Assembly: GCA_945882415.1 (NCBI GenBank)
Contig: CAMCWC010000006.1
Coordinates: forward strand, 1-64,000
From: Chthonomonas calidirosea
GTDB lineage: Bacteria > Armatimonadota > Fimbriimonadia > Fimbriimonadales > Fimbriimonadaceae
Direction: 5' to 3'
Length of the DNA: 64,000 nucleotides
Part shown: one piece after another, positions 10,446 to 27,298 of the stretch
Position numbering within the stretch: the first letter of the stretch is position 1
Layout: each line of letters begins with the position of its first letter
Translations under genes and position numbers: made by a program
Notes under the pieces: generated by a model
What the model was told of the DNA's origin: nothing
Seen by the model: the letters and a program-made list of their open reading frames with translations, nothing else
The model's database searches: none

Positions 10446-10624
10446 CAAGTCTGATTTTGTGTGGGACCTACGGAAGAACAATTGTGAGCGTGTCCGTCAG
10501 GGCAAGCATGAGATTTGGATCAACCCGGCGAATCAATTGACCTCGCCGGTAACGCGCCACCAAAAAAACTGGCCGATAGTTGGTCAGGTAAGTCTGTCGG
10601 GAACTGGGAAAAACGGAGGCGTGA
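10441..10624 (+). pseudogene. Decayed hicA-type toxin gene
   Basis: The first frame reads SKSDFVWDLRKNNCERVRQ, then GKHEIWINPANQLTSPVTRH, the conserved first half of HicA mRNA interferase including the active His in HEIW. The second half continues in two other frames: KKLADS at 10563-10580, then LVR-stop-VCRELGK ending at TGA 10622-10624, which matches the HicA tail. Repair would need one base added at the A7 run (10562-10568), one T near 10580-10581, and reversal of the in-frame TAA at 10589-10591. The frame read straight through runs on to 10737 with unrelated sequence. It is probably inactive. No intact hicB lies next to it. Confidence 0.7.
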
Positions 10625-11102
10625 CATTAGGCGTGCAAAGCAACGCCAACGCTTTGAGAATGAGCAAGGCCCGAGAGAGCATCTTGGGCAAATCGTTGGA
10701 AGGCGCAAAATACAGACGAAGCGCAGAAGAGTGGTGACTCAAAGTTTTGAAAGTTAAGCGCGGAGATGCATTGCTAGTCGACAGATTAATACCTAAGTTT
10801 CAAATCAGAAGTAGCAGCGTCTCGCCATCATGGTCCGGTCGAGAGGAACGATGGCGTCGTTCAAAAACTTGGGCTGCTGATAAATCTCATGAAGCAAAAG
10901 TTTTAAGCTAATGAAGAAAAAAGTCTGTGAGGACACAGGTGGGCGGACAGGCTTACATCTGGCGCAGATGGCGGTGAAACGAGGGGAGCCAAAGACGGAT
11001 ACTCTGATTCATTATTTGAACCTTCGGGTGAGTTATGGAGTCAGACCAAAAAATCGACAAAGTTGCAACATGATTACCTTTAAAGTCAAGAGGTGACAAA
11101 TC
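10625..11102. other. Gene-poor stretch after the hicA relic
   Basis: About 480 bases with lower GC than the surroundings. A 61-codon open frame at 10911-11096 has no recognisable features or convincing start context and is not called. I see no RNA gene or repeat here. The likely reading is decayed accessory DNA. Confidence 0.5.
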
Positions 11103-11237
11103 ATGGTGGATGGACATATACTGAAGTTTGCGGTCAACTTTGATGGCGAATGGTTCATTGCGAAAATTTTGTGGCATTTTGGAAAGCGGGCAGTTGGCGC
11201 ATACGGAAACGACCGAACGCGAAACAAAACCTTCTAG
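11103..11237 (+). CDS. 44-codon ORF, possible HicB-like antitoxin remnant
   Basis: ATG 11103 is preceded by AAGAGGTG with 7-8 bases spacing, a good ribosome site. The product contains ILKFAVNFDGEWFIAKI, then GAYGNDRTRNKTF. HicB/DUF1902-like antitoxins start with a similar pattern (beta-strand, DGRWIAEIP, then AYG-x-x-REEA), so this may be the N-terminal part of one, truncated by TAG at 11235. The match is by eye and short. Its position ~480 bases beyond the hicA relic fits a broken toxin-antitoxin locus. Confidence 0.35.
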   Translation: MVDGHILKFAVNFDGEWFIAKILWHFGKRAVGAYGNDRTRNKTF

Positions 11238-11778
11238 TAGGATACCGTAGTCCTAGAGAGATGCCGTACTATGGTGAGTACGTCGAGGCGACACGAAGTG
11301 AGCCAGTTTGGTAGGGAGCATTTAAAAGGGCCGCAGATTCCGGTAGAACACGGAGAATTTCGAAGACATCTCTTTCTGAGACATTACTACGGCACGGTCC
11401 ACACCCGGTCCGGCGGGTGTCTGGATTCTTGCCCACCCGGTAGCGATAGAGTTTGGGCCCCGGGCCCGTTTCGAGGAAGTGGGCGGGTGCCGTTCGACTC
11501 TCAAAACGAGGCTGACCGGGCATTTTAGGTTACATTTCTAAAACGTCATTGAGAAAGCCCTAAAGAACGGTAGCGCCTGCGCAGGCTCCACTACGAAAAA
11601 GTTGGCCTCTGAGTTTGTCAAATAACCTCTCAAGCCCCTTAATGTGCCATGTTTTCGAGACGGTGGACGGCCCGGTCGTTGCCACCAAGATGCTAGGCGC
11701 GCGCCTCGCGGAAACATTACTGAGGTTTGCCTCGGCGAGCTGCGCGGCATTTTCACTCAGCGACGGCCCACCCGTGAC
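11238..11778. other. Intergenic stretch before the SIR2-HerA operon end
   Basis: About 540 bases between the small ORF and the herA stop. It contains GC-rich palindromic pieces (GGGCCCCGGGCCC near 11455, GCCTGCGCAGGC near 11575) and several short open frames without coding character. No tRNA folds from the TTCGACT-like motif near 11493. I see no gene that I can support. Confidence 0.5.
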
Positions 11779-13554
11779 CTACCAGAACTCTTGGTAGCGT
11801 GGTCCGCTAGACTTTGGCGGCGTCGATGGGGGGATGATCTGCAGAGTGACAGGTATTGGAAAGTCGGTTCCAATCAGAATCGCTTGACCCGCTGCAAGGG
11901 TCGGAACAAAGGCAGCAGCACTTCGGTCGAGGTCCCCCGCCGCTCGCTCAACGATTTCTCGGTCCTCAGGATTGGTGAGTCTATGAACCAGATACGCACC
12001 CATTTGACTCAGAATTCCCTGACCAATGTCGCGGGGACGCTGAGTCGCTAGGCACAGAGTGAGTCCGAACTTCCGGCCTTCTTTTGCTATCAACTCAAAG
12101 GAATCAAGCTTCAGTTTGCTCCCTTCTTCTCCAAGAGATTTTCCAATGAATTGATGGGCCTCGTCTAGAAAAACAATCAATGGTTGCGAGACAAGCTTAT
12201 TCTTTCGACCGAAAAGTAAGAGCTGACGTCCTATACTGTTGACGAAAATTTCTCGGATGTTATTCGAGAACGACAATTCTTTAAGTGAGAGCACAAGTAC
12301 CGATAAAGAATCGTTAGCTAAGAATGGGAGCAGTACGTCCATAAGAATGTCTTTCTTGTCCCCTGGTCGAAACAGACAAGCGAACTCGGAAGATGATACG
12401 ATCTGTTCTACCCTTGATACTAAGTTAATACAGTAGCCAAGATCGCCTTGGTGGACGCCCCCGTACCTGTTCTGGCTTGCGCCTTGACCGCTCGGCCAAC
12501 AACATTCAAGCTGAATTTGCTCAGCCAAGGCTGCAATTTCAAATTCCGATGCAGGTTTATCTATCAATTCCGCAAATGCTCGCGAAGCGTTCTCATACGG
12601 AGCTCTTGTGGACTCTGGTTTCGGAATATTCCGACCTTCACCGACTTGGGTTAGTAAGGCTCGAGCAGCTTGTTCGTGTGATGCGTATTTCGCTGGATTC
12701 CCTGACACAAGCCTTGCGTAATGTAGAGTCTTGAGTGACTTGATCGCGGCCCGGAGCTTCGGCGCCTGCGATTGAGGGGCGGGTTGGAATAGTGCGAACA
12801 AATCGCCCTCTAGGAGGCGCTTATATGGCAGCACGACCTCGAATGAACCTCGTTGCTCCGCAGCAGAATCCGAGTTCACGTGAATATGCTGGATATGCGG
12901 CCCATTCAGTGTGTGAAACTCGCCGGTTGGATCTATCAGGAGAATCTTCGACTTGTGCCGACCAGCTTCCTCAATAAGCCGCGCAAGCGTCCAGCTTTTA
13001 CCTCCGCCGGTGGTCCCCAGAACTGCGCAGTGCCTACCGAAAAGGCTTTCCGGTGCGACACGGATGAGGGTCTCAGACGAAAAGGGCAGTGTGGCCAACG
13101 TCAGGAGTTTCGCACCACCTTCCGTGTCTGCAAAGCGAGTGGACTCCGCGAGCCACTTTATCAACAAGGGATGAGCAGAGAAGCACCTCGCCCCTAGTCT
13201 AGGGTGGTGAGGCACACCAGGCTCGATCTTCCCAGATGCAAGGTCTACTGAAGCGACGAGCGAAACAATTCCTATAGGATGCACGTCTGGTCTGCCGCCA
13301 AGATCTTCCTCAACCGATAAGCGCTCTCTTTCTGGCAATCTGACAGCGGTAATGCGTCCAAAAACCGCCGCATGCCCTGATTCTACGACGACAAACTCGC
13401 CAACCCTTCCTGCTTCTAACTGGTGTCCATGATGCCACCGTGATCCAGGGGCAGCAGCTTGAGGCAGGTTGACCTTAACGGTGTTTCCTGCGATCTCGAT
13501 GACTGTCCCGATTGCCCTGTCGGCATCAAACGGATAGATTGGCAAGGTACTCAT
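11779..13554 (-). CDS. herA: HerA-type FtsK/HerA ATPase of a SIR2-HerA defence system
   Basis: 591 residues. An N-terminal HAS-like beta-barrel (about 15-110, with GTVIEIAGNTVKV and GEFVVVESG) precedes a RecA-type motor. Walker A is GTTGGGKS at 180-187 and Walker B is VFLDEAHQF with Asp464 and Glu465. A sensor segment CLATQRPRDI and an arginine region LTNPEDREIVERA follow. HerA proteins form hexameric DNA translocases. Next to a SIR2 gene they form an antiviral complex in which HerA assembles with the NADase. The ATG overlaps the SIR2 stop (ATGA), indicating coupled translation. No HerA-linked NurA nuclease is present, which supports the defence rather than DNA-end-resection assignment. Confidence 0.9.
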   Translation of the reverse strand: MSTLPIYPFDADRAIGTVIEIAGNTVKVNLPQAAAPGSRWHHGHQLEAGRVGEFVVVESGHAAVFGRITAVRLPERERLSVEEDLGGRPDVHPIGIVSLVASVDLASGKIEPGVPHHPRLGARCFSAHPLLIKWLAESTRFADTEGGAKLLTLATLPFSSETLIRVAPESLFGRHCAVLGTTGGGKSWTLARLIEEAGRHKSKILLIDPTGEFHTLNGPHIQHIHVNSDSAAEQRGSFEVVLPYKRLLEGDLFALFQPAPQSQAPKLRAAIKSLKTLHYARLVSGNPAKYASHEQAARALLTQVGEGRNIPKPESTRAPYENASRAFAELIDKPASEFEIAALAEQIQLECCWPSGQGASQNRYGGVHQGDLGYCINLVSRVEQIVSSSEFACLFRPGDKKDILMDVLLPFLANDSLSVLVLSLKELSFSNNIREIFVNSIGRQLLLFGRKNKLVSQPLIVFLDEAHQFIGKSLGEEGSKLKLDSFELIAKEGRKFGLTLCLATQRPRDIGQGILSQMGAYLVHRLTNPEDREIVERAAGDLDRSAAAFVPTLAAGQAILIGTDFPIPVTLQIIPPSTPPKSSGPRYQEFW

Positions 13555-14705
13555 AAGTTAAAGAGTTGATTTGTCCGGGCCTGATGAAGTTCTTCCTCCG
13601 TTAGAGCTACCAGGTCGGGCATATGTTCAACAAAGTCCTCAAATCGTGCGGATACTGCATTGATCCTTACATCGCCACCATCGATGAGGCTGATCAGCGC
13701 ACGATGAACGTCGTTGGTTGAGCCCTCAATTGACAAGCGGGGATCCACAACGCTACACTTTAATCCAACATTGGATCGAACGGCGGCGAGAATTGGCTCG
13801 TTAAGGTGTTTGTCGCTGAATCCGTATCCAATGACGAGGAGGCCAGTATTAGGCATTCGCAGCGCAGATTGAAAACGAGACATCACCTCGAAAAATGGTT
13901 GTTGAAACGAAGATTCGTACTTTCCAACTCTCGGATAAACCATCACAGGATTTTCAGTTTGTCGTCGAATAACTTGCCCATTGCTTTGTCGCTCCCAATC
14001 GACAGAACCGTGAAGCTTAAGCAGCTGAAAGACATTCGGAATAAAGGCGAGATTATCAGCCTCAGTATCGCGTCTCACTAGGTCATAGCTAAAATACGAA
14101 CCATCAAAGATTTGCGGAGAAGAATGACTGAATCCATCGATGACCACGAAGCCCATATTTGCTGCTGCGGTCTCAAAACAAAGATCGTAATTGGTCGTAA
14201 AGAGACGTAGTCGAGGCTGACGACTTGAGCGTCGTGCGACTTTACGGAGAAACATCTCGTGAACAGGCAAGTTATGGCCTTCACCGGCGAACAGACAAGC
14301 ACTTTGTATTGTTCGTTCCGCTTCTGTCACAAACTCGGAGACGATATCGTCCGTATGGAGAGCGGTATACATCTGACAGCGACTCATCAGTGCCTCAATA
14401 TTCGACTCTTCTTTTGGATAGCCAACTCTATCAAGGACTGTTTCAAACATTTTGAGGTGTCTGGAAAGCTCCCATAAATCATTCATTGTTGGTGCAATAT
14501 TAGCGCCGTCACCGTTGAGGCATAAACTTGTTCCTAATCCGGACAGAACAATCAGATTTTCAGAAAGTAAGACTTCGGCAATCTTCGAAAGCCAGTCGCT
14601 CGAATCTATCGGTGGATTTACCCATGCTTTCTGGGACCGTACTTTCACTGCTGTTATCAATTGCGTCTCTGAAGCGGCCTGGGTAAGCGCGATTTTATCA
14701 GCCAT
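13551..14705 (-). CDS. SIR2-domain NADase of a SIR2-HerA defence system
   Basis: 384 residues with a SIR2 fold: LIVLSGLGTSLCLNGDG at 51-67 (nucleotide-binding GxGxS-like loop), LFTTNYDLCFE with Asn172, KLHGSVDW with the catalytic-type His232, and VIGYGFSDKHLNEPIL near the C-terminus. Defence SIR2 proteins hydrolyse NAD+ after phage detection and stop growth. The first ~35 residues are outside the core. The start ATG 14705 lies three bases after the stop of a small P-loop ORF, and the stop overlaps herA by four bases, so all three are probably one transcript. Confidence 0.88.
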   Translation of the reverse strand: MADKIALTQAASETQLITAVKVRSQKAWVNPPIDSSDWLSKIAEVLLSENLIVLSGLGTSLCLNGDGANIAPTMNDLWELSRHLKMFETVLDRVGYPKEESNIEALMSRCQMYTALHTDDIVSEFVTEAERTIQSACLFAGEGHNLPVHEMFLRKVARRSSRQPRLRLFTTNYDLCFETAAANMGFVVIDGFSHSSPQIFDGSYFSYDLVRRDTEADNLAFIPNVFQLLKLHGSVDWERQSNGQVIRRQTENPVMVYPRVGKYESSFQQPFFEVMSRFQSALRMPNTGLLVIGYGFSDKHLNEPILAAVRSNVGLKCSVVDPRLSIEGSTNDVHRALISLIDGGDVRINAVSARFEDFVEHMPDLVALTEEELHQARTNQLFNL

Positions 14706-14708
14706 TTT

Positions 14709-15110
14709 TTACCGTACCATCCTGAAATTGCCACTGCCTACCCTACGCGCGCCGAAATATCCCTGTATGGAGTTGGCATGGAAGTAGCCGTCACTAAATT
14801 TCTGACTCGGCATACTTTTCGGGGCGATGAACATCTTTTCCTCTTGACAACATAGCGTTTTGGAATGGCGGCGGAATTGCGTTGTTTCGCCGATCATGTT
14901 CTTTAGCCGCGTTCGGCTTTCGCTTCCCGAGGCTCCTCCAATCAAAGTTCCCGCGCTCGAAGCCTGAAGCAACTCCATAAAGCGGGTCTTGCCCAACCAG
15001 TTCGGGCCGCAGACTTCCGGTCCAGTAGTTGCGCCTTTAACGAGGAAAGGCTTTCGGTGTTGAAGGTAGCTCTTACCACTACGGATATGAATATTCTTCA
15101 TAATTGGCAA
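14709..15110 (-). CDS. Short P-loop ORF upstream of SIR2, probable AAA ATPase fragment
   Basis: 133 residues. The segment VCGPNWLGKTRFMELLQ contains an intact Walker A pattern (GxxxxGKT), and the text before it resembles the N-terminus of AAA15/OLD-like ATPases. Nothing after residue ~60 looks like the rest of such an ATPase: no Walker B and no signature motif. Either an ATPase gene was truncated by deletion and now ends directly before SIR2, or the small protein is a real leader component. Its stop is 3 bases from the SIR2 ATG, and its final codons supply the AGGATGG sequence that may serve SIR2 as ribosome site. Confidence 0.45.
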   Translation of the reverse strand: MPIMKNIHIRSGKSYLQHRKPFLVKGATTGPEVCGPNWLGKTRFMELLQASSAGTLIGGASGSESRTRLKNMIGETTQFRRHSKTLCCQEEKMFIAPKSMPSQKFSDGYFHANSIQGYFGARRVGSGNFRMVR

Positions 15111-15319
15111 AATCTATTGTAATCATGTTCAAAGAAAAATATTCAATCAATGCAAGTGCCCTCGGGTACTGAACAGGTCAGATTTGGCATGCTTTCTTTC
15201 AATATTGTTTTGATTCGATCCAATGTGACGAGCCGTGGAAATGACGGCTACTTAAGGAACTGGTGAGCCGAGGCGGGATGCCACGACTCGCGTAGCTTGT
15301 TGAAGCTGGTCAGGCGCGA

Positions 15320-15502
15320 TCAATCGCGGCGGTTGTCTGCTTCCTTAGCGACTCCTTTGAAAGGAGTGCCATCTTGCTTCTGGTCCATGAATTGGCCCGT
15401 TTCCGTGTCGCGCTTGGTCCATTTCCCATTTTGCGGGTTTTGAACTTGAGATCGATCCTTCACTGAGCCGAGTCTGAACCCATTACCAGTATTCTTTGCC
15501 AT
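15320..15502 (-). CDS. Conserved small basic protein
   Basis: 60 residues from ATG 15502. Sequence blocks GNGFRLGSVKDRSQVQNP, WTKRDTETGQFMDQKQDG and TPFKGVAKE match a small protein family I recall as widespread among bacteria and of unknown function. It is hydrophilic, rich in Lys, Gln and Gly, and without membrane or metal motifs. It sits alone in the accessory island, upstream of the SIR2-HerA transcript on the same strand with ~200 bases between. Good codon-level conservation supports a real gene. Confidence 0.7.
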   Translation of the reverse strand: MAKNTGNGFRLGSVKDRSQVQNPQNGKWTKRDTETGQFMDQKQDGTPFKGVAKEADNRRD

Positions 15503-15772
15503 CACTTAAATGTAGACGGTTGACAACTCTAATTCGCTGCTGCGGTGCTGCCCAAAAGACCTTCTAATGTTCATATTTTGCAGACCTGCCTTCTAGGTCT
15601 GGTCGAAAAGTAAGACAACGTCTTGCTGTAGCACGGCAAGCGGAAACCGAGCCCTGATGAACTGAAGACATATGTCTACTGTACACCGTCGACCGAGGTC
15701 GGCTCGGTTCGATTACTTGCTCTGCTTCATTCTCTGTGCCTTCCAGGCGGGATATTGTGGTACTTCCGATGC

Positions 15773-17350
15773 CTAGAACGTCCCGCCGACGCTGAATTCC
15801 CATCCCTGCTGCCGTCGTTCGAATCCACGGCTTGCGTTAAAGCCCGAAATGTACGAGATCGAAAGGGCTTCATTACGTGTCGGGAAGATCACGCTGAGCC
15901 GGTAGTCGTCCCAAATGTTGCGCTCATTTCGAGCAGAGCCGGAATAGTTGGTGTACGGGGTGAAGTACACGTTCGCGGTAGCTCTCAGCTTTAGATAGGG
16001 CAGGAACTGTTGTGCTCTGGAATCAAGGCGTAGAAGGGCTCTAGCAATGGTGTTCGAGCTTCCGAATACCTTCGCTGATCTTGAGTGGTAGCCACCCATC
16101 TGAATCGAGAAGTCCAGCGTTGGCAGGGTGTCGTGCAGGTTCTTTGATTGCAAGCCACCTAATTTGACCTTGCCGCCTGCATTGTAGGGAATCAGTTGCT
16201 TTATCGTCGCGACGCCCAAGAATGAAGGGCTATTGAACTGCTGGTCGCCATCGATCGTGATGCTCGTTCTGAACTGAGTCGGGTGGTTTCGATCCGCTTC
16301 GTAGATTGAGCTGAAGTCAAACTTCAACTTAGAGTTGGGATCTTGTGTATTGGTGCTGATGACCGCATCCGAAACATCAAAATGCGTCCAGACATGCTGC
16401 CCGAAAAGGTACGCCGAAAGATCGGGAGCAAGATTTTTTGCAGAGAAGTTAAAGCCCAGACGTTGCACATCGACAACTTTTCGGACGGCTTTCTTCTCAA
16501 TTAATCCGGTGTCCTCATTCAGGACGAACTTATCGACGGTCTGATTCAGCCGTACACCGTTCTGTTGTCCGACCGACGTCGTGGAAAAGGACGCAGCGCG
16601 AACATGCTCGAGCACGTTTACACGTTGCTTTTGTAGAACAGGTGGTGTTCCATCAAGTGAAACGGTCGCGTCTTTGCGCGTACCAAAGACGTACCGCTCG
16701 GTGGACAGCGAGGAGAGTCCCTTTTTTGTAAAGTCGGGTCCGGGGATCAGCGCTTTAATTGTTTCCGAATCGAGATCGAGAAGGACCATGTACGCATCGG
16801 CACCGTTTTTCACAGTGCGTTGCAGCGTGTCCGCCGAGCTGTCGTCTAGGATCTGCCTTCCATCCACCTTAGCTAGCTCACGTAACTTGTATTCAACATT
16901 CTTTGCACCAGCGGTAGTAACTTCAAAAGTCTTTGTGAGGAAGATGCTGGCGGAACTCGGACGAAGAACCTCAGAAATTTCGGGATTTTTGACGAGAACT
17001 TCAGAAGGATACGAGTAGGTGTGATCCTTGTTTTCAAGCTTAAGAACGAGAATCCGCGGAAGTACCTTCTTCCATAAGTTGCGAATTCTTTCAGCGAACT
17101 TGACTTCGCCGTCCTCGGCTTTGTCCTTCAGAATTGCTTTCAGTTCAACAATTTCTTCGGCGGTGAGCACCGATGCAATGGGCGCGGTAATTGTCGCAAT
17201 GGGAGCGGAAGCCGCGCCATTGTAGGCAGTTGCAAAGGTTGCACCGAGTTTGGCGGTGACAATGGATGTCTGGGCCGGAGCACTCAAGGTCGTCGCCGGT
17301 AGCGAGAGAAGGTCGATGGCTGGCAACGAGTAAAAAATTGGCACGCACAA
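15773..17350 (-). CDS. Putative outer-membrane or secreted beta-rich protein, start uncertain
   Basis: Up to 525 residues, family not recognised. Residues ~60-340 look soluble, and the last ~200 residues alternate like barrel strands (LRATANVYFTPYTNYSGSA, LSVIFPTRNEALSISYISG), ending EFSVGGTF with terminal Phe. The N-terminus is odd: a TAG stop precedes TTG 17350, and both TTG 17350 and GTG 17344 lie inside a perfect hairpin that is followed by a T-tract. The real start may be a later TTG (17326), or the 5' end of the gene has been lost. VPIFYSLPAIDLLSLPATTLSAPA looks like a signal peptide missing its basic head. Confidence 0.55.
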   Translation of the reverse strand: MCVPIFYSLPAIDLLSLPATTLSAPAQTSIVTAKLGATFATAYNGAASAPIATITAPIASVLTAEEIVELKAILKDKAEDGEVKFAERIRNLWKKVLPRILVLKLENKDHTYSYPSEVLVKNPEISEVLRPSSASIFLTKTFEVTTAGAKNVEYKLRELAKVDGRQILDDSSADTLQRTVKNGADAYMVLLDLDSETIKALIPGPDFTKKGLSSLSTERYVFGTRKDATVSLDGTPPVLQKQRVNVLEHVRAASFSTTSVGQQNGVRLNQTVDKFVLNEDTGLIEKKAVRKVVDVQRLGFNFSAKNLAPDLSAYLFGQHVWTHFDVSDAVISTNTQDPNSKLKFDFSSIYEADRNHPTQFRTSITIDGDQQFNSPSFLGVATIKQLIPYNAGGKVKLGGLQSKNLHDTLPTLDFSIQMGGYHSRSAKVFGSSNTIARALLRLDSRAQQFLPYLKLRATANVYFTPYTNYSGSARNERNIWDDYRLSVIFPTRNEALSISYISGFNASRGFERRQQGWEFSVGGTF

Positions 17351-17368
17351 CTATATCAGTTGTGCGTG
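17342..17368 (-). terminator. Perfect 11-bp hairpin with U-tract
   Basis: CACGCACAACT and AGTTGTGCGTG are perfect inverse copies with a 5-base loop. Read on the minus strand the hairpin is followed by CCAATTTTTTA, as in an intrinsic terminator. It could end the transcript of the genes at 17696-18825. It also covers the possible TTG/GTG starts of the next gene, so it may act as an attenuator. Confidence 0.65.
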
Positions 17369-17695
17369 TCGCTGTAAGCCTGCATTGCAGAATTGTCCCA
17401 AAAAGAGCAATATGTTATTGTTTAGGTTAAGAGATGGATATTGACCGTCCGCTTCTACGCACGTGCTGCATGATCAGCGTCCCGCGTCTAGTCGCGAGAT
17501 GTTCACGCAGGCTAGAGTGGGCAGATCTAACCACCACGGTTGTTTCGTCGGAAACCAAGCCGATTCGTGTGCCGCTTCCGGAACATTGGGGGATCGAGGC
17601 AGGTGTGATATCTTGGAAGCCGACAATCTCAGAGTGGGAAAGGAACTTGTGCTGCTTCTAGAGCTGCAAATCTCATAGCATCCTTCAGCATGAAA
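17369..17695. other. Intergenic stretch without a supported gene
   Basis: About 330 bases. A 75-codon plus-strand frame at 17434-17661 is open but has no ribosome site, no family resemblance and no codon pattern like the neighbours. The stretch probably holds the 3' untranslated region of the minus-strand gene ending at 17696. Confidence 0.4.
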
Positions 17696-18205
17696 TCACG
17701 GCAAGAACGTACCAGTGCCGATCGTCATCGTCGGTGTGCTTACGGACACGCCGACGAAAAACGTTGTCTGCAACTTCAACTCTTCCTGGCTCGTGGGCGA
17801 GAAGAGGGCGACTAGGTTGGAGAAGTTTTCTGGGGTTTTGACATTTTTGGCGAACAGCACTTCTATCGAGCGTTGAGTTTCTGGACTTAATTCTCGCCAC
17901 TTATGGCTGGCCGATTGTTTTAGGATTTCGAAGAGCTCGGGGGTGAGGTGGCCAGTGCGGGCCAGGGGGGAGAGGTTGGCGTGGCGGCAGCGCTTTTGCA
18001 TTGCGAGTTTGTCGGTGTCGCTTGGATCGGTCTGGCTCAGGACCCAGGTCGAACCGTTGGGCCTCCAATCCAGGCGGTAGGTTGCCAGCATGGCGGTCAC
18101 GTATTCGGTCATCCGCAGACTTCCCTTGCCGTGAATGTAGACCGGCAGCGAGGCGAGTGAGGGATCAACCTCGACGGGCAGATTCAGGTCGAAAAGTTCC
18201 TTCAC
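17696..18205 (-). CDS. STN-like domain protein, downstream half of a frameshifted gene
   Basis: 169 residues from GTG 18205. The N-terminal part FVKELFDLNLPVEVDPSLA, VYIHGKGSL and MTEYVTAMLATYRLDW resembles the STN (secretin/TonB short N-terminal) fold. The similarity continues upstream of the GTG in the same frame (LWTSSTTVGQF), although no start codon lies there. The preceding gene stops within four bases (GTGA). The simplest reading is that this is the C-terminal part of one ~376-residue secreted protein broken by a one-base loss. Coupled separate translation is the alternative. Confidence 0.55.
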   Translation of the reverse strand: MKELFDLNLPVEVDPSLASLPVYIHGKGSLRMTEYVTAMLATYRLDWRPNGSTWVLSQTDPSDTDKLAMQKRCRHANLSPLARTGHLTPELFEILKQSASHKWRELSPETQRSIEVLFAKNVKTPENFSNLVALFSPTSQEELKLQTTFFVGVSVSTPTMTIGTGTFLP

Positions 18206-18825
18206 GAACTGCCCGACGGTGGTGCTTGAAGTCCAAAGTCGGCGCGCGAGGGGGCGCAGGGGGTGGCGATGGCCTCTGGGAGGGGGCTCGCGGGAGGTGT
18301 TGCTCGAAATGGCTTGGGTTCGAACGGGACGGCGGAGTTGGGGGCCAGCTCAATCATAAGGGTGCGGCCATCTTTCGCGGTGATGGTTAGGCGAGCCAGC
18401 AGTTCGGCGGAAACCTTTGCATCGTCAGGAAGGGTCCTTCGGCGCTGCGAGTTTCGGTCGAAGAAGAAGTGGTTCAGGTTCGCGAGCAATTCGGGAGGCG
18501 TCTTGTGCCAGGGGATTTCTGCCTTGGGCGCGGCGGATGCTTTTCCGGCGGCAAAGAGCTCCGCGGCGATGAAGCCGGTTTGAAAGCTGTCTTTTCGGGC
18601 GCCTTTAAAGGCGCGGTTAAAGTGGTGACTCAGATCTGACACCACGCGCACGGGACCAGAATCTTGGATAGCGTAGGTGACGTGCGGCTCGATCACTTGC
18701 TCCAGTGACCGGCTTTCGGGTCGAACCACGTTCGGAAGTTTGCAACTGATGACCAGCGAAGGAACCGCTGCCGTGGACTCGGGCGATTGGGCTATGGCAA
18801 CGGCAAGGAGGAGGGAGCTGATCAT
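18202..18825 (-). CDS. Secreted protein, upstream half of a frameshifted gene
   Basis: 207 residues starting at MISSLLLAVAIAQSPESTAA, a signal peptide. ATG 18825 is chosen because the longer frame to 18855 would start inside a terminator hairpin. The middle part contains ELFAAGKASAAPKAEIPWH and LANLNHFFFDRNSQRRR; no family is recognised. The end (ATPPASPLPEAIATPCAPSR) is low-complexity and crosses several G5 runs (complement C5) between about 18246 and 18296. Adding one base there would fuse it to the STN-like half at 17696-18205. Confidence 0.6.
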   Translation of the reverse strand: MISSLLLAVAIAQSPESTAAVPSLVISCKLPNVVRPESRSLEQVIEPHVTYAIQDSGPVRVVSDLSHHFNRAFKGARKDSFQTGFIAAELFAAGKASAAPKAEIPWHKTPPELLANLNHFFFDRNSQRRRTLPDDAKVSAELLARLTITAKDGRTLMIELAPNSAVPFEPKPFRATPPASPLPEAIATPCAPSRADFGLQAPPSGSS

Positions 18826-18838
18826 TGGATTTCCAAAA

Positions 18839-18873
18839 AGAAACGCTTGCCACACATAGTAGCAAGCGTTTCT
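18839..18873 (-). terminator. Intrinsic terminator after the zeta-kinase operon
   Basis: AGAAACGCTTGC and GCAAGCGTTTCT form a perfect 12-bp stem with an 11-base loop. On the minus strand the stem is followed by TTTTT. It lies ~20 bases after the stop of the small antitoxin-like gene and only 13 bases before the next minus-strand start at 18825. Confidence 0.88.
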
Positions 18874-18893
18874 CTAAATGCCAAGCCAAGAGA

Positions 18894-23627: not shown

Positions 23628-23685
23628 GCGGGCGGCGAACTTTCATGTAACGCTTTCCGGCTTCTTGCGTTATTATGTATATCCG

Positions 23686-24135
23686 ATGAGATGGATTCTG
23701 TCTTTCTTGGTACTTTCCTTAGGAGTATGTGGATTTGCGCAACCTGGCGGCGGAGGTGGGAGCGGCGGATCATCCGATGTGACCATTGGGTACGTCCAAC
23801 TCCGTACGGTGCTGGGTCGTCTGAACGATGGCCAAAAGGTGTCAGGCTCGTTGGCGGAGTTTAACGGTGAGGCACAGACGCTTGGGTTGCCAGGGCATGA
23901 AGAGGCAGGGCCCGAAGAATACGTCAATGCACGTCTGGATGAGTTTAAGATCGAAATTTCTGGAGAGGTTGTTCATCAGTGGTCGGGAACTGGAATCGGC
24001 GGCTATGCATCTGTCTCATTTGCTAGTACGCACTTTTCTCACGGAGCGGCGATACCGCTTAAAGTTTCTGCAAAATGGAGCTTGCAGAAAAAAAATATCA
24101 TGGCACGCAAACTTATGAGCCGGGGCCGAGTCTAA
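23686..24135 (+). CDS. N-terminal part of a secreted CHAT/caspase-like protein, out of frame with the rest
   Basis: ATG 23686 begins MRWILSFLVLSLGVCGFAQP, a signal peptide, then a Gly/Ser-rich linker and a beta-rich region (VTIGYVQLRTVLGRL, DEFKIEISGEVVHQW). The native similarity stops at the A8 run at 24088-24095. After it this frame yields ~15 unrelated residues and stops at 24133-24135. Adding one A (A9) would continue straight into the frame of 24075-24893, giving one 402-residue protein. The gene starts 58 bases after the transporter ATPase and is not obviously related to it. Confidence 0.6.
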   Translation: MRWILSFLVLSLGVCGFAQPGGGGGSGGSSDVTIGYVQLRTVLGRLNDGQKVSGSLAEFNGEAQTLGLPGHEEAGPEEYVNARLDEFKIEISGEVVHQWSGTGIGGYASVSFASTHFSHGAAIPLKVSAKWSLQKKNIMARKLMSRGRV

Positions 24136-24893
24136 GTCGCCAGATCACGGTTTACGCATACAACGTTGGGCTGGCATTGCATACAGACGAGATCTTTTCT
24201 GGCAGCGCCTACAGCGTTCCTAATCCCCCTAATCAGGATCAGGACAATTGGGACACGATTTCCAAGTTGGCTTCAATCAAGGCACAGACGGCCTTCTCAG
24301 ATATGAATCACCTACTTGGTGGTGGCGCATCAATGCTAAAGCCAGAATTGCTTCAGAGGTTGGGTCCCTTGACGGTGTTCTTTGCCTTTACACATGGCGA
24401 GTCAATAAACTTTAGAGCAACCCGGGACGCTTCCTTGTCCTTTGCGGCCAGCAACAATGAAGTCCTCTCTGCAGTTTCTTCTCGTAACTTGTCAATTCCA
24501 AATCCTAACATCGTTGTGATGCACGCTTGCGAAACTCTTCAGACAGATGGCTTGGCATCGACTGCATTTAAGCTGACGGACGGAACTACCGCTATTCGGA
24601 ATAAAGCGTACGCCGGCTTCAAAACGAAAATTCATAGTTGGACTATGGAGTGGAATGGCAATCCTTCGGTTACCTTGGATAATCACGCAACTATGGTTTA
24701 TAATCTATTGGCATCTGGTAAAGTGATTAGTGAGGCGGTTGCCGTAGCAAACAGTACTTTTAAACCTCGGAGCCAATTCGTAAACTCGGCGCAAGATATG
24801 AAAACTTATGGAGATGGCAATGCCCGGCTCATCAACGTCTATAACGGTCAATCCATTTCGACTACGTGGTACAAGGTGGCGGCGCCAATATGA
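24075..24893 (+). CDS. C-terminal CHAT/caspase-like domain of the same interrupted gene
   Basis: The frame carries YHGTQTYEPGPSLSRQITVY onward. LTVFFAFTHGESINFRA has a His-Gly at 107-108, and PNIVVMHACETLQTDG has Cys152, 45 residues later. This is the strand-His-Gly ... strand-x-Ala-Cys-Glu-Thr arrangement of CHAT and other clan CD peptidases. The upstream frame supplies the signal peptide, so the whole would act in the periplasm or outside. The nominal ATG 24075 lies inside the upstream coding part and has no ribosome site. The stop overlaps the next start (ATGA). Peptidase activity is inferred from two motifs only. Confidence 0.6.
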   Translation: MELAEKKYHGTQTYEPGPSLSRQITVYAYNVGLALHTDEIFSGSAYSVPNPPNQDQDNWDTISKLASIKAQTAFSDMNHLLGGGASMLKPELLQRLGPLTVFFAFTHGESINFRATRDASLSFAASNNEVLSAVSSRNLSIPNPNIVVMHACETLQTDGLASTAFKLTDGTTAIRNKAYAGFKTKIHSWTMEWNGNPSVTLDNHATMVYNLLASGKVISEAVAVANSTFKPRSQFVNSAQDMKTYGDGNARLINVYNGQSISTTWYKVAAPI

Positions 24894-26128
24894 ATAGCGT
24901 AGTGCTAGCCGGATTATGCCTTTCTAGCAGTCTGTTAACACCAGGTCCCCAGGACCCGAAGGCAGACTTTGAATCGTTCCTGTCACTTGCATTCCAGGGC
25001 AGTTTGCCAAAATCTGATTACGATCCCAAATGGCTTGAGAACCCAGTCTCCGAGAAACTAACCTATACATTTGGCGACCTGCAGAATTGTACGGTAACGC
25101 ATTACAATGACTTCTTTGTTTACACGCAAAATGACTCGAAGGCTATCGTGGCATTCCATTCGAATCGAAGTGCCCGGCTAGGCAGGCGAAATCCCGTAGT
25201 CGACGGGAAGACGGTTGATTCCGTTGTGCCCTATAAGCTGTCAGACAGTGATGCGGATCGGATTGCGCAACGCATTTACAATCTTGCGGGTTATCCGGGC
25301 GAAATCTTTATCCGTTGGCGCAAACCGAACGAAGGTAATGAGTCGAGTTCGCTTGAGATTCAGTACCTACCAATGGTAAACGGCGTTCCTTATGAAACAG
25401 GACAAACTGAGCTGCTCTTGCTGGATCAAGAGAATGGCCAGCTGAACATGTTTCGGGGACCGAGCCAATTCCTTCCAAAACCTCCAAAAACATTTGTTCC
25501 CAAGGTATCAAAGGAGGATGCAGAATGGGCTGGGGTGATGGCAACGGCTGCTAGTTTTGAAGCGGCCCTACTTCCAGGGGGCGGTATTCAGACTGCCTTG
25601 TGTCTGTGGAAACCTTCCGGGCTAGAAAGTACTCGCTACAGTAAGCGATGGCCATCGGCAAGTAACCTGAGGGCAAGCCACAATAACGAAGCTATCTTGG
25701 CCTATGAGATGCAATTTAAGGATCCAAGATTTGGCGAAACTGGCGGTGAACCCAACATGTTCTACTATGTTTATGTCGACGCAATTGATGGGAGCGTAGT
25801 TCAGATCAATCGATTCCCCGGCGTGGCATTCCGAGGCGGCGGAGGAACGCAGTCACCTACGACAATGCCGGTACCGAGCGGGCAGCGGACTTGGAAGGTG
25901 GGCAGCAAAGGGGGGAACTGGTCAGGCTACAGGACCGGGAAATTTGAGGAAGTACCGAGCCAGGAGTTCAAACCGGAAGCAAGCGTCCTGCTCGCAACGC
26001 ATAACTTCGCGGCGACGGTTGAGTGGGATGGGGCTCGGGAGTTAGTTCGGTTCGGCAAGACCGTTTACCGTCCAACTGGAGAGTTTACGAACGCGTTCAT
26101 CCAGAAAGCGAAGCCGCCGAAGGAGTAG
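24890..26128 (+). CDS. Secreted protein of unknown function coupled to the CHAT-like gene
   Basis: 412 residues from ATG 24890, which overlaps the preceding stop (ATGA). It begins MNSVVLAGLCLSSSLLTPGP, a signal-like segment. The region FGDLQNCTVTHYNDFFVYT, LSDSDADRIAQRIYNLAGYP and the late NMFYYVYVDAIDGSVVQINR resemble PepSY-type folds, which often act as inhibitors or propeptides of secreted peptidases. That reading is tentative but fits its coupling to a protease-like gene. A strong hairpin follows directly after the stop. Confidence 0.65.
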   Translation: MNSVVLAGLCLSSSLLTPGPQDPKADFESFLSLAFQGSLPKSDYDPKWLENPVSEKLTYTFGDLQNCTVTHYNDFFVYTQNDSKAIVAFHSNRSARLGRRNPVVDGKTVDSVVPYKLSDSDADRIAQRIYNLAGYPGEIFIRWRKPNEGNESSSLEIQYLPMVNGVPYETGQTELLLLDQENGQLNMFRGPSQFLPKPPKTFVPKVSKEDAEWAGVMATAASFEAALLPGGGIQTALCLWKPSGLESTRYSKRWPSASNLRASHNNEAILAYEMQFKDPRFGETGGEPNMFYYVYVDAIDGSVVQINRFPGVAFRGGGGTQSPTTMPVPSGQRTWKVGSKGGNWSGYRTGKFEEVPSQEFKPEASVLLATHNFAATVEWDGARELVRFGKTVYRPTGEFTNAFIQKAKPPKE

Positions 26129-26160
26129 TTCGGGAGCGAAGCGTTGGCTTGCTCCCGAAC
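26128..26160. terminator. Long hairpin between convergent genes
   Basis: GTTCGGGAGC and GCTCCCGAAC pair perfectly, and AAGC with GCTT extend the stem past a single bulged G to a GTTG loop. It starts on the last base of the stop codon of the secreted protein and lies 15 bases before the end of the convergent ThuA gene, so it may serve both. No U-tract follows. Confidence 0.7.
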
Positions 26161-26174
26161 AGTTGAAGCAAGAA

Positions 26175-26915: not shown

Positions 26916-26959
26916 CGCGTCTATTTTGTCTTATTTGGGACGTGTAAACGGCTGGAAAA

Positions 26960-27298
26960 TCCGAGTCGGTCTATAAGCCGGATTCTGTGTTTGTGCAGCG
27001 ATTTATCTACGCGACCAACCCGGAGGATCGGCGGGCCGCGTCATCTCCTCCCTATTTGGTCTTGCTTCAGATGGGGTTTGCACGGCCGCGGAGTTACCTC
27101 CAACGCCGGTGAGCTCTTACCTCACCATTTCAACCTTACCTCCCGATAAATCGGGGTGGGCGGTATGTTTCTGTTGCACTTTCCGTCGGGTCACCCCGCC
27201 CCGGCATGAGCAAGCTCTCGCCGGGCACCTTGCCCTGTGAAGTCCGGACTTTCCTCCCCAATCATGAAGATGGGGCCGCTACCCGACCAACTCGGACT
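26960..27298 (-). ncRNA. rnpB: RNase P RNA, bacterial type A
   Basis: Catalytic RNA that trims tRNA 5' leaders. On the minus strand TCCGAGTTGGTC near 27296 pairs with GACCGACTCGGA near 26960 to form P1. Conserved blocks follow: GAGGAAAGTCCGGACTTC, CAGGGCAAGGTGCC, GGGTGACCCGACGGAAAGTG, CAACAGAAACATACCGCC, GGTAAGGTTGAAATGGTGAG, GAGGAGATGACG and the terminal AGAATCCGGCTTATAG. Length ~339 nt. Ends are set by P1 pairing and could differ by a few bases. Confidence 0.95.

Follow-up and report, generated by a model that had tools for sequence, protein, structure and literature searches.

Homopolymer-tract phase variation is best studied in host-associated bacteria. In the type seen in Neisseria and in Bordetella fimX, tracts of 7 to 12 bases are located in the promoters or reading frames of exported proteins, and the Bordetella homopolymer-tract study (PMC1891110) provides the comparison for the locus described here. 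A gene interrupted beside a poly-A run has also been described, namely, tssM of Citrobacter rodentium (PMC4256274). On the protein side, the closest families are the CHAT domain (PF12770, peptidase clan CD), the PepSY and DUF4901 (YcdB/YcdC) domains, and the propeptides of M4 metalloproteases.

The locus is a two-gene cassette (geneA and geneB) found in the window, i.e., the whole 64,000-nucleotide stretch of Chthonomonas calidirosea DNA that was analyzed. In contrast to the Neisseria/Bordetella type, the host belongs to the Armatimonadota, the genes form CHAT-PepSY cassettes, the window copy has only an A8 run inside the reading frame, and the system is known here from sequence, with one genome per species. 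The run differs from that of tssM in its length (A8, as opposed to A11), and slippage is unsupported for the window. The literature searched contained no paper linking Armatimonadetes/Armatimonadota with phase variation or the CHAT domain with PepSY. We lean slightly toward the view that the cassette is a member of a phase-variable family and that the window carries a frame-OFF allele. The broader proposal, a mobile Armatimonadota family of exported CHAT-protease/PepSY-partner cassettes that are randomly switched by homopolymers within the promoter spacer or the reading frame, with the window copy as an OFF member, is about evenly poised.

Organization of the cassette

The features of the locus, in window coordinates, are as follows.

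23629 to 26174, no strand assigned: cassette island of 2546 bp with 50.5% GC (5-kb flanks, 60.6 and 60.5%), delimited by blastn and junction comparison
23686 to 24135, plus strand: 5' frame of geneA, with the signal peptide MRWILSFLVLSLGVCGFA and an N-terminal domain that includes the motif FASTHF; stops after 149 aa
24063 to 24893, plus strand: 3' frame of geneA, an open -1 frame with a divergent CHAT (caspase-like) domain (profile match to CHAT, 94.9%) and the stop codon TGA at 24891 to 24893
24088 to 24095, plus strand: A8 run marking the -1 switch of reading frame, one of eight runs of at least A8 in the genome
24393 to 24395, plus strand: predicted catalytic His codon (THG; H107 of P0001), >90% conserved
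24528 to 24530, plus strand: predicted catalytic Cys codon (HACET; C152 of P0001), >90% conserved
24890 to 26128, plus strand: geneB, a secreted 412-aa PepSY/propeptide-like partner whose ATG overlaps the geneA stop (ATGA)
26129 to 26159, plus strand: hairpin TTCGGGAGC...GCTCCCGAA directly 3' of geneB, a probable terminator seen in the sequence and missing from the list of the T-tail scan

According to the ORF reading of the window, frame 1 of geneA opens with the ATG at 23686 and ends with a stop at 24133 to 24135, yielding 149 aa including the signal peptide, and the -1 frame, open from 24063 to 24890, carries the THG and HACET motifs. The switch between them is confined to 70 bp (24063 to 24132) that contain the A8 run, the only homopolymer of at least 8 in the whole window; runs of A8 or longer number just eight in the genome (G000; 3.36 Mb, 99% complete). 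A product read through this run has 402 aa, and the 266 codons 3' of the run are open, with all motifs kept and no second lesion. At the other end, the geneA TGA (24891 to 24893) and the geneB ATG (24890 to 24892) overlap as ATGA. The first-pass annotation had described the signal peptide and N-terminal domain in one frame, the His-Gly...Cys pair in the -1 frame with a switch at A8, a 402-residue protein upon restoration of the frame, and the ATGA overlap, all of which were confirmed. FASTHF is a family motif that is kept among the geneA relatives. Because homology to intact single-frame relatives crosses the junction, the two window frames were once one gene, and since the Armatimonadota homologs are mostly single open frames, the ancestor can be taken to have been one gene as well.

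GeneA encodes a divergent CHAT domain

Judged by profile comparison, geneA contains a divergent CHAT domain whose predicted catalytic His and Cys residues are aligned with those of the family. In hhalign, a profile of 42 geneA members matched CHAT domains from related genomes at 94.9% (E value of 5e-8), with His on His and Cys on Cys, compared with 2.5% for the caspase-family C14 and 0.2 to 0.3% for the negative controls. Residues H107, G108, and C152 are conserved in >90% of these 42 members, and the relatives with a single frame keep THG and (A/G)CxT. In common with CHAT, geneA has the His-Gly plus (A/G)Cx(T) pair, which comes after a GFxxxV strand and an (F/Y)xxLxxGxxxxxA helix. It differs from CHAT in falling below the curated Pfam cutoff (13.3 bits versus 24), in being exported, and in having an N-terminal domain of its own. 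None of the 42 members matched CHAT at an E value of 0.01, searches of PADLOC and NCBIfam returned nothing, and the standard CHAT genes of geneA-bearing genomes are found at separate loci. As for a caspase fold that brings His and Cys into contact, for which the first-pass annotation had looked to structure prediction, AF2 gave a pLDDT of 33 for the CHAT half on a shallow three-sequence alignment, and this model was not used. The predicted catalytic pair suggests that the intact geneA product would be a protease.

GeneB and its pairing with geneA

PepSY (PF03413) was matched by 8 of 44 geneB proteins (E value of ≤0.01; best, 1.1e-4) and DUF4901 by 4 of 44; the window geneB matched PepSY with an E value of 0.12, under the threshold. 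The geneB profile showed a weak match to M4 protease propeptides in the PDB, and an AF2 model of geneB from a shallow three-sequence alignment (pLDDT of 37) was not used. Unlike an M4 propeptide, which is in cis of its metalloprotease, geneB is a free-standing gene for a secreted protein, its partner being a cysteine-protease-like protein for which it may serve as an inhibitor or chaperone.

A same-strand ORF directly follows geneA in all 71 scored copies and, in the loci inspected, belongs to the B family (as identified by HMM in most of them and by eye in the rest). Where geneA at first seemed unpaired, every copy that was retrieved turned out to be followed by a PepSY-like secreted ORF, in some cases recognized by eye only. 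Overlapping junctions were found in 32 of the 48 A-B pairs scored, with a 4-bp overlap in 12; translational coupling of geneB to geneA is thus supported at the level of gene layout. Tandem A-B arrays occur at three loci (L067, L073, and L089). The A and B distances co-vary (Mantel r of 0.74, falling to 0.45 when each genome contributes a single pair; P of 0.0002), to which shared species history may contribute. What had been proposed from the window as an exported protease-like module with a PepSY-like partner is therefore a conserved cassette family.

Distribution and frame state of the cassettes

In a whole-genome search, geneA was detected in 26 to 32 (depending on the profile used) of the 85 genomes of the taxonomic family f1 and in 34 of the 251 genomes of a phylum-wide sample, frequently as multiple copies. 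Two members of family f1, UBA2387 and the Fimbriimonadaceae isolate TGS_ARM4, were matched by a four-member profile in a contig scan; a scan of viral contigs revealed no relative. Among 71 copies scored for frame state, 57 are intact (L065 being counted here, though its signal peptide sits in another frame), 7, including that of the window, are frame-split, 1 is interrupted by an in-frame stop, and 6 are shortened at the 5' end. Each of the eight split or stopped copies keeps an open geneB, a count that, for want of a proper control set, is not taken as a sign of preferential retention. Two split copies (L083 and L207) have no long run, and in a third (L075) the run is located elsewhere; because these three do not break at a long run, plain decay evidently occurs too. 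Several damaged copies are found in the genome G016, where L063 and L064 each represent a 5'-truncated geneA beside open B genes.

Homopolymer tracts around geneA

Across loci that are related and hence not independent, runs of at least 7 number 17.8 per 10 kb in the 200 bp before geneA versus 1.0 per 10 kb elsewhere in the same loci (∼18-fold). With one genome per species, a run of at least 8 near the start (-150 to +30 of predicted starts, those of geneA being predicted partly by hand, with two overrides) is present in 20 of 52 geneA copies versus 5 of 90 other ORFs (P of 1.4e-6), some of which seem to cross the same tract in antisense orientation (in which case the test would be conservative), and in 0 of 58 geneB copies, a control that lies inside the geneA frame and is therefore not neutral. 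Runs of at least 7 overlap the -35/-10 spacer in nine geneA copies and in no control, e.g., TTGACA-ttttc(G11)ct-TATGAT in L058; in L057, a CTTT repeat directly precedes the -10 element, and the L073 paralogs have T9, T11, and T9 at one site. Four of the 10 distinct T/A tracts of 9 or more in the complete genome G080 adjoin geneA starts on the upstream side (expected, 0.006), and tracts directly upstream of geneA copies account for 2 of 15 such G/C tracts in G026 and 3 of 9 such T/A tracts in G119.

Some tracts interrupt the gene itself: in L065/L096, a G9 run divides the signal peptide from the mature part and the frame is broken, and in L209 the frame is broken at C8. Overall, runs inside geneA frames (1.5 versus 1.0 per 10 kb) show no notable enrichment. 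Upstream of the window copy, there is neither a tract nor a clear -35/-10 pair. Taken together, the tract comparisons, a feature that the first-pass annotation had not noted, support phase variability of the cassette family. The phase switching suggested by the first-pass annotation accordingly holds up for the family but is not established for the A8 run of the window, which might be reversible.

Comparison with the sister genome

The island is flanked by convergent rbsA-like and ThuA-like genes. In the sister species (G014), the neighbors are collinear (nucleotide identity of 91.6% to the left of the locus and 86% to the right) and the cassette is absent, a 33-bp spacer with a hairpin replacing positions 23629 to 26174; the recommended comparison with sister genomes therefore provided no second allele. 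Given the empty site and the lower GC content of the island, the data fit a gain by horizontal transfer; loss in the sister species is possible. In the 51 kb aligned to G014, single-base differences fall in intergenic DNA, close to gene ends, or in compensating pairs, and no isolated frame-breaking indel was found well inside a gene. Another A8 run of the same genome, inside a UvrD helicase gene, is in frame, and this, together with the clean 51 kb, disfavors a systematic homopolymer fault. Elsewhere in the window, positions 10461 to 18877 do not align to the syntenic part of G014 and are probably another lineage-specific block, and a full-length bacterial class A RNase P RNA is located at 26958 to 27294 (minus strand).

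Interpretation of the split frame

The main rival to a phase-variable allele is a one-off frameshift pseudogene, in which an irreversible slip at A8 destroyed the protease of a recently acquired cassette, leaving geneB behind. It would agree with the damage seen in the family (seven split copies, one in-frame stop, six short 5' ends, several of them without runs, and an open geneB in all eight split or stopped cases) and with the rule from the literature that most unclustered frameshifts represent indels or errors (PMC3711429). We nevertheless regard it as rather unlikely, as the break falls on the sole run of 8 in the window and the long open stretch beyond it has all its motifs and no second lesion. 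A local fault of assembly or sequencing at the A run, in a gene that is truly in frame, is improbable: relatives are in frame and homopolymers are the usual site of errors, but the alignment to G014 is free of isolated frame-breaking indels well inside genes and the UvrD run is in frame.

The first-pass annotation had also put forward slippage as a route of expression. Transcriptional slippage or programmed -1 ribosomal frameshifting at A8 would give a fixed mix of short and full products, as in C. rodentium, where a poly-A slip at A11 rescued the interrupted tssM (PMC4256274), and the run does read A_AAA_AAT in frame, with GGAG 9 nt upstream. However, the A8 site is missing from all relatives, 57 of the 71 scored copies being in one frame, and bacterial RNA polymerase needs at least 7 T and even more A, A8 being near the lower limit for slippage in E. 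coli (PMC6260861). Frameshifting would further have to manage with no downstream structure (z score of +1.54, with equal or better folding in 195 of 200 shuffles). The slippage proposal is accordingly unsupported, and a fixed product mix of either kind appears highly improbable. That the locus comprises two genes, one for a small secreted N-domain protein and one for a CHAT protein independently started from the ATG at 24075 in the -1 frame, is barely credible: the homology of intact relatives crosses the junction, and the CHAT frame lacks a signal peptide and any evident ribosome-binding site.

Under the preferred reading, that of a phase-variable family with an OFF allele in the window, a horizontally mobile two-gene cassette would encode protein A, combining an exported N-terminal domain with a divergent CHAT cysteine-protease domain, and protein B, an exported PepSY/propeptide-like protein whose translation would be coupled to that of A. 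The length of a homopolymer tract, which in most cases lies in the promoter region of A and occasionally within its frame, would change by slipped-strand mispairing and thereby determine whether the A-B pair is produced. The tract-like element of the window would be the A8 run inside the frame, and the assembled allele would be OFF for the protease, so that the predicted products are an exported N-terminal fragment alone and an intact B. If so, an environmental, little-studied phylum would have randomly switched exported caspase-like proteins with a paired, propeptide-like partner acting in trans. This would raise the question of which pressure favors the switching (predators, phages, or kin competition) and would make the A-B pair a testable protease/partner system.

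Other possible switchable sites

Long tracts were also observed away from geneA. The genome of the window has a G12 run near a 260-aa ORF (L212; G000:C2:68013-68024), a G9 run (C13:105585), and a terminal G run on contig C22, all of which are possible switchable sites. The complete genome G026 has G9 runs near the starts of two similar short ORFs (NWQLDY...) at L210 (C1:303567) and L226 (1190423). Upstream tracts before exported proteins may be a wider pattern in genomes related to that of the window: in one related genome (L219:1501), a C11 run precedes by 21 bp a 385-aa protein whose N terminus resembles a signal peptide. In both G089 and G090 (L242/L243), A10 is located 24 bp before a lipoprotein-like 387-aa ORF.
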